Origin: Parabacteroides sp. PM6-13
GTDB taxonomy: Bacteria > Bacteroidota > Bacteroidia > Bacteroidales > Tannerellaceae
Direction: 5' to 3'
NCBI RefSeq assembly: GCF_029892605.1
Contig: NZ_JARXWF010000002.1
Location: 248,001 to 312,000 of the forward strand
DNA: 64,000 nt
Shown here: in pieces, positions 34,087 through 37,512 of the stretch
Layout: each line of letters opens with the position of its first letter
How positions within the stretch are numbered: position 1 is the first letter of the stretch
The notes under the pieces: generated by a model
Told to the model about the DNA's origin: nothing
What the model saw: the letters and a program-made list of their open reading frames with translations, nothing else
The model's database searches: none
Translations under genes and position numbers: made by a program

Positions 34087-34403
34087 CGAAATAATTTCCG
34101 AATTGTGATTAAGAGGGGGGGGAAGGGAGTGATTAATGGTTAGTGGTTAGTGAGGAGAAAGGAGAAAGGAGAAGGGAGAAAGGAGAAGGGAGAAAGGGAG
34201 AAAGGAGAAAGGAGAAAGGAGAAGGGAGAAAGGAGAAGGGAGAAAGGGAGAAAGGAGAAAGGAGAAGGGGAGAAAGGAGAAGGGAGAAGGGAGAAAGGAG
34301 AAGGGAGAGGTTGGCACAGATAGCAATCGTAGATTGCCTTGCTCTGTAGCCAGTTGCCTCAGGCTGCTGGTCTTCGGATCGAAGAAGAGGGGAAGGTATG
34401 GGG

Positions 34404-34603
34404 AAAGCCCGGAAGGGCTTCAACCTGGATAACCCCGTGCAAACCGTAGGTGCAGCTCGGGGTAGAAGTAAGTCTATATAATGAGCTCCGTAGGAGGTCA
34501 ACTGTTGAGCCCCTACGGAGCTCGTTCCTACGACACTATCAACCCCGAGCTGCGCCTTAACGGCTTGCACGGGGTTATCCGCATCTAAGTCCTTCCGGAC
34601 TTT
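34404..34603 (+). repeat. palindromic element B, copy 2
   Basis: Same layout as copy 1; the inner nonamer reads TTATCCGCA here. Confidence 0.88.
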
Positions 34604-34656
34604 CAAATTGGAAAAGCTGCTGGTCTTCGGATCGAAGAAAAGGGGAAGGTATGGGG

Positions 34657-34856
34657 AAAGCCCGGAAGGGCTTCAACCTGGATAACCCCGTGCAAACCGT
34701 AGGTGCAGCGCGGGGTAGAAGTATGTCTATATAATGAGCTCCGTAGGAGGTCAACTGTTGAGCCCCTACGGAGCTCGTTCCTACGGCACTATCAACCCCG
34801 AGCTGCGCCTTAACGGCTTGCACGGGGTTATCCGCATCTAAGTCCTTCCGGACTTT
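34657..34856 (+). repeat. palindromic element B, copy 3
   Basis: Nearly identical to copy 2 and spaced from it by exactly 253 bp, so one arose by tandem duplication of the other. Confidence 0.88.
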
Positions 34857-35009: not shown

Positions 35010-36002
35010 CTATTCCTTCGCAAAAAACGCATCAAAGGCATGCGCGGAGGGTTGGAAGTCGATTTGTTTGGTGAAGGCGCATGATTCGCGGGCACCATGT
35101 TCGCGGTCCATGGCGGAGTCTTCCCATTCGATGGAGAGGGGACCCTGGTAGCCGATGGAGTTGAGGGCACGGATGATCTCTTCGAAGTTGACCTTGCCGC
35201 GTCCTACGCTGCGGAAGTTCCAATAACGTCGTGGATCGCCAAAGGGCACATGTCCACCAAAGACACCGACCTGACGGGGCGTATCGCTCCACCAGGCATC
35301 TTTCATATGCACATGGAAGATACGATCGGGGAATTCGTAGATGAAATCGACATAATCGACACCCTGATAACCCAGGTGGCTGGGGTCGTAGTTGAAACCA
35401 AAGGCGGGATGGTTGCCCACTGCCTCCAGGGCGCGGCGTGCCGAGAAGGTATCGAAGGCGATCTCGGTGGGATGCACCTCAAGCGCGAAACGAACACCCA
35501 GCTTCTGATAGGCATCGAGGATCGGGATAAAACGACGGGCAAACTCCTGATAACCGGCTTCGATCATCGCTTCGGTCACCGGCGGGAAGGAATAGAGCAG
35601 GTGCCAGATAGGGCTACCGGTGAAGCCAACCACCGTGTCGACGCCCAATGCCTTAGCAGCCTCGGCGGTGCGGATCAGTTCTTCGGCAGCACGGCGGCTT
35701 ACGCCTTCGGGATCGCCATCGCCCCAGATATAAGCGGGCAGGATGCCTTTGTGGCGCTCATCGATGCGGTCGCACACGGCCTGCCCCACCAGGTGGGTAG
35801 AGATGCAATGCAGCTGCATGCCGTAGCGGGCCAACAGATCGCGGATGCCTTGGTAATAGGCGGGATCGGTCTGGCGGACATCCAGGTGATCAGGAAGTCC
35901 CAGTTCGATACCATCGTAGCCAAACTCTTTTGCTTTTTCACATACTGTCTCTAACGAGAGATCTCCCCATTGCAGGGAATACAGGGTAACTGGACGAGCC
36001 AT
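35010..36002 (-). CDS. sugar phosphate isomerase/epimerase (AP-endonuclease-2 TIM barrel)
   Basis: 330 residues with the TIM-barrel pattern of xylose isomerase-like enzymes. Metal-binding residues occur in order: Glu/His in [10 protein letters not shown], Asp/His in [12 protein letters not shown], His in [10 protein letters not shown], and Glu in [15 protein letters not shown]. It would isomerise or epimerise a sugar, sugar phosphate or inositol derivative in the cytoplasm; the substrate cannot be told. It stands alone with no linked dehydrogenase. Upstream is a short TTAATTG heptamer stretch. Confidence 0.85.
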
Positions 36003-36007
36003 GGGTT

Positions 36008-36032
36008 TAATTTTTAATTGTTAATTGATATT
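36008..36032. repeat. TTAATTG heptamers upstream of the isomerase gene
   Basis: About three consecutive heptamers of the TTAATTG type immediately before the isomerase start. Confidence 0.6.
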
Positions 36033-36174
36033 TGAATTGTACTTTCTACTCATAAGCCAATAGTTTTTTCTTCCACTTATTATATCAAAAGACAAAGACG
36101 CAGAGTTGTTCATATTCCTTTTGCGTTTTAGAAGCTCTCAGAAGTGGTTTTCACAAATCTAAGGAAATTTTTCT

Positions 36175-36182
36175 TATATTTG
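36175..36182 (+). promoter_or_regulatory. -7 promoter box of the long-leader transcript
   Basis: TATATTTG matches TAnnTTTG exactly, and predicts transcription from about 36186. The next substantial gene begins 425 nt later, at 36611. Confidence 0.5.
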
Positions 36183-36227
36183 CTGGTAACGAATGATAAT
36201 CATCACTTAACTAAAGATTTTTAACCA

Positions 36228-36305
36228 ATGGAATCTATGCTGAAGAAACATTTTAACCGATGGAATCTAAACGATAGTTTTTTCATCTATATACATTATA
36301 TATAA
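36228..36305 (+). CDS. possible 25-residue leader peptide
   Basis: ATG at 36228, stop at 36303-36305. The peptide starts MESMLKKHFNRWNLND and ends with a hydrophobic, Tyr/Ile-rich tail. It sits just after the promoter box and before the GC-rich structured segment. A direct repeat (TTTTAACC, then ATGGAATCTA) covers its start and middle. It may be a chance frame; nothing else supports translation. Confidence 0.25.
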   Translation: MESMLKKHFNRWNLNDSFFIYIHYI

Positions 36306-36325
36306 TATAACACATTCAGCTATAG

Positions 36326-36600
36326 CTGCCTGATAGGCTCCTCGTGGTAGGAGCCTGTCGGGATCAGTCGCACCTGTTCCGCCGCCGGAGGGATGGGGAG
36401 AGGTGGGCTATTAATTTCATTTCTTGATAGGGGAAACGTGCTGATTAGCTGTAATCAGCGGATGACCCCGTGTGCGCTACGAGCAGGGAGAGCCATTATC
36501 AAATCTCTTCTTGCCGCCTGGTAGCGCCCACCGGTGACGGATATTCGTCTGTCGTCGGAGGGCATAGGGGCTGGTAGGGGAACCAAACCAAGCCCCGCCA
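36326..36600 (+). ncRNA. candidate structured RNA or long 5' leader
   Basis: A GC-rich ~275-nt segment between AT-rich DNA and the gene at 36611. A strong stem-loop lies at 36329-36362 (8 perfect pairs AGGCTCCT/AGGAGCCT, extended by six more). A long-range pair joins GGTGGGCTA (36412-36420) to TAGCGCCCACC (36522-36532). Inside is a GCTGATT/AATCAGC hairpin (36440-36459), with a GGGG/CCCC pair around it. A GGGGCT/AGCCCC hairpin (36577-36596) comes just before the start codon. I could not match it to RNase P, tmRNA, SRP RNA, or the TPP, cobalamin, c-di-GMP or THF riboswitches. The promoter at 36175 would transcribe it. Confidence 0.45.
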
Positions 36601-36610
36601 GAACAAACCT

Positions 36611-37081
36611 ATGTACTACGAAAAATTAAAAGAGCTATTTGGCGGCCAACGTCCCGCCGTGAGATCATTCAACCAAATCATGCAATCACTCTCGTCCGAC
36701 GAACAGCAGGAAGCCATCCGCCTGGTCTATCGCGTGGCCCTGGCGGAATGGGGCGACTGCAACGCGGCCTACCGTCTTTTCCTGATCCGATTCCTTGAAG
36801 AGGATCTGCAACGCTTCCTCGATCACCTGCGTCGGGAGAGCTGCTGGGGCGAGTTGTTGATCCCACTCGAAGATGCCGAATGGCTGATGCTCCTGTTCTT
36901 CGCCCTGGCGGAACCTAAAAAGACCCGTAAGCTCACCCGCCGTGTCCTGGCCTTTAGCCTCTTACTCTTCACCGGGCACAGGGACTGGAAAATCAGCACC
37001 CTCCTGCAATACCGCAAAACCCGCCCCGTCACGACAGCGGAATTGGCAGAACTGATGCGGTGGGTGAAGGTGGGTGGTTAG
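36611..37081 (+). CDS. small helical protein of unknown function behind a long leader
   Basis: 156 residues, not recognised. The sequence is rich in Leu, Arg and Glu, predicted mostly helical (EEAIRLVYRVALAEWGDC-like and LIRFLEEDLQRFLDHLRRES stretches). A basic, hydrophobic segment (KTRKLTRRVLAFSLLLFTGH) near the end could be amphipathic or membrane-associated. The GC content is higher than flanking DNA. The last three codons and stop (GTG GGT GGT TAG) read into the repeat that begins island 5, so the native C-terminus may have been altered. ATG 36611. Confidence 0.65.
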   Translation: MYYEKLKELFGGQRPAVRSFNQIMQSLSSDEQQEAIRLVYRVALAEWGDCNAAYRLFLIRFLEEDLQRFLDHLRRESCWGELLIPLEDAEWLMLLFFALAEPKKTRKLTRRVLAFSLLLFTGHRDWKISTLLQYRKTRPVTTAELAELMRWVKVGG

Positions 37082-37252
37082 TAAGGAGAAAGGAGAAAGG
37101 AGAAGGGAGAAGGGAGAAGGGAGAAAGGAGAAAGGAGAAAGGGGGGAAGGGAGAAAGGGGGAGGTTGGCACAGATAGCAATCATAGATTGCTCCGCTCTG
37201 TAGCCAGTTGCCTCAGGCTGCTGGTCTCAAATGGGAGAGGATGGGAAGGTAG

Positions 37253-37453
37253 AAAGCCCGAAAGGGCTTCAACTTGGATAACCCCGTGCAAACCGTAGGT
37301 GCAGCTCGGGGTTGAAGTAATATCTATATAATGAGCTCCGTAGGAGGTCAACTGTTGAGCCCCTACGGAGCTCGTTTTTATTATACTCTCGTCCCCCGAG
37401 CTGCGCCTGGCGGCTTGCACGGGGTTATCCACGTCTAAGTCCTTCCGGACTTT
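37253..37453 (+). repeat. palindromic element B, copy 4
   Basis: Same architecture as copy 1, with inner nonamer TTATCCACG. Confidence 0.88.
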
Positions 37454-37512
37454 TGAATCAAATCTTCCAAGATTTGATTCAGGAAAGGAGAAAGGAGAAA
37501 GGTTGCAGGGAT

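Follow-up and report, generated by a model that had tools for sequence, protein, structure and literature searches.

The window analysed here is a stretch of 64,000 nucleotides from Parabacteroides sp. PM6-13 (genome G000, 4.04 Mb), and all positions are counted from its first letter. On its forward strand a GC-rich leader precedes a gene for a protein of 156 residues, here called p156, which is flanked by a sugar isomerase-like gene (PF01261) on the opposite strand and by a dispersed intergenic repeat. The features of leader and gene are as follows.

36175-36182, + strand: candidate -7 promoter box TATATTTG, found by pattern search; a similar stretch lies before the homologue of a sister species (G004) in the alignment.
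36228-36305, + strand: 25-codon ORF, read by eye, inside the part that cannot be aligned with G004.
36329-36362, + strand: hairpin with 14-nt arms (36329-36342 and 36349-36362), 86% complementary.
36474-36527, + strand: SL1, a GCGCUA(C)/(G)UAGCGC stem with an inner hairpin, common to the window, G004 and G002.
36526-36563, + strand: SL2, a GCCC/GGGC stem with a 12-pair inner stem (36531-36542 with 36547-36558), from the fold and a three-species alignment.
36572-36600, + strand: SL3, UGG-UA-GGGG / CCCC-G-CCA with the 12-nt loop AACCAAACCAAG; its 3' end is 10 nt upstream of the AUG; recurrent and covarying.
36611-37081, + strand: p156 coding sequence, 156 aa, from the ORF call; undescribed family, predicted helical (low confidence), under purifying selection.

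The 156-codon frame bears out the protein proposed in a sequence-only reading of this DNA. Between p156 and its G004 homologue amino acid identity is 71% and nucleotide identity over the coding sequence 68%, and the values of dN 0.26 and dS 1.40 (dN/dS 0.19) indicate a genuine gene under purifying selection. A contig of Parabacteroides sp. PFB2-10 carries a homologue at 71%. A profile of 16 members had matches in 28 of 123 genomes from the bacterial family (among those of good quality, 22 of 61), with up to eight matches per genome, at most seven of which span most of the protein. Spread beyond the family was rejected, as five of 393 genomes of the order matched, four being family members and the fifth a weak match (E 1.9e-4); an origin in phages, plasmids or viruses was likewise rejected, no relative having been found in phages, plasmids or viral contigs. 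No Pfam, NCBIfam, PHROG or PADLOC assignment of the family rose above chance level. The Pfam match to She9_MDM33 (E 0.0011, below the Pfam cut-off) and the NCBIfam match to casB_cse2 (E 0.016) each concerned one of 16 members, the PHROGs matches had E 0.088 or worse, and all were taken as chance. No ribosomal protein family match was found. The AlphaFold model, made for four sequences, was helical and poor (pLDDT 62.9), its comparison with the PDB by Foldseek gave nothing with E below 0.9, and a profile search of PDB sequences gave E 0.4 or worse. p156 appears to be a family new to description.

The genes downstream of p156 were surveyed in 59 loci with at least 2 kb of downstream sequence, using single-linkage clusters around one locus, L072, whose own cluster members match PF18291 and PF08291. 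An HU-HIG-like ORF follows p156 in 36 of the 59 loci, a small hydrophobic ORF in 30 and an ORF of a merged M15 peptidase/small lipoprotein-like cluster in 28, while 22 loci, the window's included, have none of these three companions. The arrangement in L072 is as follows.

L072, 3867-5400: cassette after p156 of HU-HIG (PF18291), a small hydrophobic ORF, an M15_3 peptidase and a further small protein.

By resemblance only, this set looks like a lysis cassette on the chromosome. On the other side of the gene, the isomerase gene that flanks p156 in the window is present in G004 as well, some 3 kb upstream of p156, so that the locus is common to the two genomes and differs in between. Four loci (L080, L083, L086 and L087) have, directly before p156, what are presumably peptidase-containing ABC exporter-like and HlyD-like ORFs. 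In L096, L100 and L108 a lipoprotein-like ORF lies just before p156, and 2-3 kb upstream are reverse transcriptase-like and small helical ORFs, which resemble those of diversity-generating retroelements. The window also has tandem arrays of AAGGAGA-like 7-mers at 34153-34308 and 37083-37158. The dispersed intergenic repeat after p156 (37180-37480) is ~300 nt long and partly palindromic, with copies near 34326-34856; its matching pieces number 80 in G000 (on both strands), eight in G001 and 12 in G004.

The Bacteroidota -7 box has the form TAnnTTTG. The sequence of TATATTTG, proposed earlier as a promoter box, fits this form and would place the transcript start near 36186, but the pattern is commoner in the window than expected (54 occurrences versus 35), which makes TATATTTG alone weak promoter evidence. 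That a structured leader lies before p156 was confirmed by folding: 36310-36615 reaches -140.3 kcal/mol (z -4.9), with none of 100 shuffles as good. The individual elements first described in its 5' part fared less well. The 25-residue frame is readable and the arms of the supposed 14-pair hairpin are there, and the long-range pair exists, read by eye at 36402-36410 with 36522-36532, its first arm having been misplaced by 10; but the 5' two-thirds of the leader, which holds all three, cannot be aligned in the sister species, and neither the hairpin nor the long-range pair was found in other genomes. With at most six candidates scored per genome, 36300-36470 had no credible match elsewhere in the 123 family genomes, the best non-self match being of 19 nt (E 0.01), and in G004, which has p156 at the same place, there was no match at E up to 1. 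Conservation of the whole leader was rejected on this basis. What can be aligned with the G004 leader is the stretch of ~100-150 nt next to the AUG, at 78% identity over 102 columns. Directly upstream of this module G004 carries a MITE-like inverted repeat with 69-nt arms (L063:2780-2927), which has 16 matching pieces in G004 and none in four genus-mates and helps to explain why the 5' parts differ.

Within the alignable part, three stem-loops, SL1-SL3 (36474-36600), are common to three species of the genus (G000, G004 and G002). The two outermost pairs of SL1 share bases with the foot of SL2, which lets these two stem-loops exchange pairs, and the long-range pair would compete with both. In the alignment of the three sequences 95% of cells are paired versus 90% when shuffled, four pairs show two-sided change (15 of 500 shuffles were as high), and pairing falls to 33-56% when the register is slid. 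Compared with shuffles, the module has the more stable fold in the window (z -3.7) and in G004 (z -3.5), but not in G002 (z -0.76, 40 of 200 as good). As such, with three sequences only, SL1 and SL2 are candidate structures with weaker support than SL3. A covariance model of the module (R2, 152 positions) had matches with E up to 1 in six of the 123 genomes. Three of these, all strong, come from its training set; a fourth, in G001 (E 6e-8), aligns well over SL3 only, and the remaining two are weak (E 0.19 and 0.55); nothing was found in 43 of 57 other p156 loci tested. A riboswitch-like core is not favoured family-wide, R2's strong matches being mostly training sequences and most other p156 loci having no match, though one may exist within the genus, where three sequences bear on it; nothing was seen that points to a metabolite ligand for the leader. 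The suggestion of a riboswitch-sized or larger non-coding RNA with long-range closing stems is not supported, since the 5' part and the long-range pair were not found in other genomes: the module of ~140 nt belongs to three species of one genus, and family-wide there is only the SL3 hairpin of ~30-45 nt with a variable stem. That the leader matches no known RNA class held up: three tRNAs are all that passes the Rfam 15 gathering scores in the window, and over 36100-37100 there was nothing better than E 5.

The hairpin described just before the start codon is present at 36572-36600 as SL3, and its recurrence could be followed through the p156 family. Sixty regions around p156 homologues and the window made 61, of which L071 and L093 lack usable upstream sequence, leaving 59 leaders. 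By eye, many of these show a hairpin in which an A-rich loop separates a C-rich 3' arm from a G-rich 5' arm with GGGA or the like at its end; from one paralogue to the next the stems are very different, also in length and in bulges. An earlier arm test on 28 hairpins chosen by eye was repeated without choice on all 59 leaders, pairing the 5' half of positions -52 to -2 with its own 3' half or with that of another leader. Own halves gave -14.27 kcal/mol and swapped halves -8.72, with none of 5000 permutations as good, and the result holds after seven near-duplicates are dropped (52 left). In 121 other ORFs of the same loci there was no effect (-4.92 versus -5.14; 4367 of 5000 permutations as good). 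Twenty-five SL3s chosen for having the hairpin (A6, 24 of them distinct) were also aligned: nine of nine pairs show changes on both sides, with 35 such cells versus 15.3 when shuffled (0 of 500 shuffles); 70.3% of cells are paired versus 55.2%, about 30% being unpaired, and sliding the register lowers two-sided changes and pairing alike. The covariance check that the first reading had proposed thus comes out in favour of its last hairpin. Hairpins of -12 kcal/mol or lower occur in 33 of the 59 p156 leaders versus 14 of 138 other ORFs, the control ORFs here, as for the arm swap and the opening energies below, being mechanical ORFs of at least 140 aa and not GC-matched genes. These results bear on whether the leader is a repeat, intergenic or dispersed, whose GC-rich composition makes it fold. 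The genome is rich in such repeats, as the 80 pieces matching the 300 nt after p156 illustrate, but a search of this genome with the leader gave one match, and SL3 shows covariation and goes with the p156 gene. We hold this explanation to be very improbable; the arm swap speaks against it for SL3, and it keeps some room for 36300-36465.

Covariation of the two arms could also arise in DNA, with SL3 as a palindromic operator of a dimeric p156 regulator and the RNA fold as a by-product; an inverted repeat in DNA would pass the arm-swap test too. The kinds of mismatch help to separate the two. In the 28 chosen hairpins there are 27 G.T mismatches versus 10 A.C (p 0.008), as RNA of the coding strand would show, and this excess, though modest in number, favours constraint on that RNA. 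In addition, the G-rich arm is mostly the 5' one (163 G-C versus 55 C-G pairs), the variation in stem length and bulges from paralogue to paralogue does not suit an operator, and SL3 would lie some 390 nt inside the transcript if the promoter at 36175 is right. An operator is, in our judgement, improbable. Comparison across the family shows that many p156 members have SL3 close ahead of their start codon as a hairpin whose arms covary, and there are signs of a constraint on the RNA and not on the DNA.

The hairpin was absent from 21 of the 59 leaders, including a clade of eight, and is therefore dispensable for some members. For the energy count, the tree and the opening energies its presence was judged by energy and not by motif, so that L077 counts as hairpin-bearing though it is not of the GGG-loop-CCC kind. 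On the protein tree of 59 members, in which L093 (no usable leader) was labelled hairpin-less, the hairpin label needs nine changes versus 19.3 for shuffled labels. Hairpin-bearing members lie on both sides of the midpoint root, with one clade of eight and several others without, and we read SL3 as an old feature that was probably lost several times.

A covariance model of SL3 from 12 leaders (R1) was run over the 123 genomes, with at most 57 candidates per genome scored under stricter filters. Its matches at E up to 0.0011 number 12, each of them immediately ahead of a p156 gene, and nowhere else among the sites scored does the model reach this level. Eleven of the 12 are training sequences, with G007:C2 from outside the training set, and one training hairpin (G112:C1) scored only E 0.14, so that the result speaks of specificity and not of sensitivity. 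Among the weaker matches (E 0.007 to 1), G120:C208 and G112:C1 are p156 leaders and no others coincide with p156 places. The middles of ten weaker loci were inspected by eye, which may miss the match in loci cut by a contig end; one is the G120 leader and the rest look like terminators, repeats or coding sequence. Whether RNA and gene always occur together, a question raised at the outset, has an answer that differs with direction: among the places scored, strong SL3 matches lie only before p156 (12 of 12), but the reverse is partial (33 of 59 leaders).

A stable hairpin in a leader may act on transcription, and SL3 or a hairpin preceding it could be an intrinsic terminator or attenuator at which read-through controls p156. 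In some leaders of one group (g14) a GGGCTTTT-like sequence was seen by eye before SL3, and six of the 28 chosen leaders have at least five T within 8 nt after it. This T-run is absent in the other 22, the window's among them (0 T of 8), and a scan of 36000-37300 found no terminator; the window leader does not show the combination of stem and U-run of an intrinsic terminator. With the run in only six of 28 leaders and none in the window, termination is an unlikely function, and we give it little weight. Still less likely, and to our mind hardly credible, is a leader RNA that acts as an antitoxin neutralising a p156 toxin. In type III toxin-antitoxin systems a tandem-repeat RNA precedes the toxin gene. 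A structured RNA directly before a small protein gene of patchy distribution and many paralogues recalls this arrangement, but tandem-repeat RNA was not found in the leader, nor a terminator between RNA and p156 gene. There was no PADLOC match among 16 members and no match to a ToxN-like family, and p156, predicted at low confidence to be helical, has no conserved residues readable as catalytic.

The position of SL3 is more suggestive of translation. Its 3' end lies 4-14 nt before the AUG in the 28 chosen leaders (10 nt in the window), the lower limit being that of the search, which took in 3' ends at 4-25 nt from the AUG. The median energy for opening -25 to +12 is 17.9 kcal/mol in 34 hairpin leaders, 6.5 in 21 without and 7.6 in 138 other ORFs; for p156 of the window it is 14.3 kcal/mol, above 89% of these other ORFs. 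In the part of PMC9976891 covered here, initiation in Bacteroidia is described as favouring upstream adenines and reduced structure, Shine-Dalgarno pairing not being general, and no Shine-Dalgarno sequence was seen near the AUG of p156 in the window. Restraint by SL3 fits hosts of this kind, whose ribosomes do not depend on Shine-Dalgarno pairing and prefer weakly structured start regions. A role of the hairpin in stabilising or processing the mRNA, as an RNase site or by 5' protection, rather than in initiation would be permitted by any covarying leader hairpin, and SL1 and SL2 lie upstream, where protection would act. The recurrent closeness of SL3 to the AUG in the chosen leaders is easier to understand as a role in initiation, and we regard stability as an unlikely main function, if one to be kept in mind.

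The comparisons support a structured RNA leader of an unassigned protein, and the region is probably, in our view, a cis-acting structured 5' leader of a new family that restrains initiation of p156 translation. SL3 would lie inside and cover the initiation region (-25 to +12) and in this way keep initiation low, and expression of p156 would then depend on a factor that opens or bypasses it. Our favoured candidate for this step is p156, or else a partner, which would bind the GGGA..CCC head, and this would amount to autoregulation. SL1 and SL2 may have been added at the level of the genus, to tune SL3 or to protect the transcript. The charge of the protein does not favour autoregulation, as p156 is only mildly basic (median pI 8.9, n=59) and hairpin-less members are more basic than hairpin-bearing ones (9.2 versus 8.4). 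Going further, and with considerable reserve, one may picture p156 as a family of small helical RNA-binding proteins, of which a genome has at most seven full-length copies and in which every copy regulates the mRNA that encodes it by an SL3 version of its own, the GGGA-loop-CCC head being the same and the stem rewritten. Such parallel protein-RNA pairs, many of them heading the cassette of HU-HIG, small hydrophobic peptide and M15 peptidase, are a speculative outcome that we do not expect to hold in full.

Bacteroidia generally start translation without Shine-Dalgarno pairing, so that regulation of initiation there is an open question. With at most seven full-length copies per genome, often with a stable hairpin over the start and with the stem rewritten, p156 offers a ready comparative and experimental case, and an undescribed protein family, often heading a lysis-like cassette, is put on the map. 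No description of this leader or of the p156 cassette was found in the part of the literature covered. A cis-acting leader is a known kind of element, and it is the SL3/p156 leader family that appears to be new. Like ribosomal-protein and other autoregulatory mRNA leaders, it is a small structured 5' UTR element that sits near the AUG in one gene family and has stems that covary and a loop that recurs; unlike ribosomal-protein leaders, it goes with a protein that matches no ribosomal protein family, and its stems are rewritten among the paralogues of one genome. A survey of candidate structured RNAs in the human microbiome, with 508 within 25 bp upstream of genes (PMC8040213), is of a related kind, having looked for elements that covary; its main text, to which the comparison is limited, does not mention Parabacteroides, and an overlapping candidate is possible. 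A further parallel is the rpsU leader of Flavobacteriales, where, in the part of PMC9976891 covered, a Bacteroidia gene is controlled through its initiation region, as we propose for p156. The rpsU leader works by an extended Shine-Dalgarno sequence, whereas in p156 it is a hairpin that covers the region.
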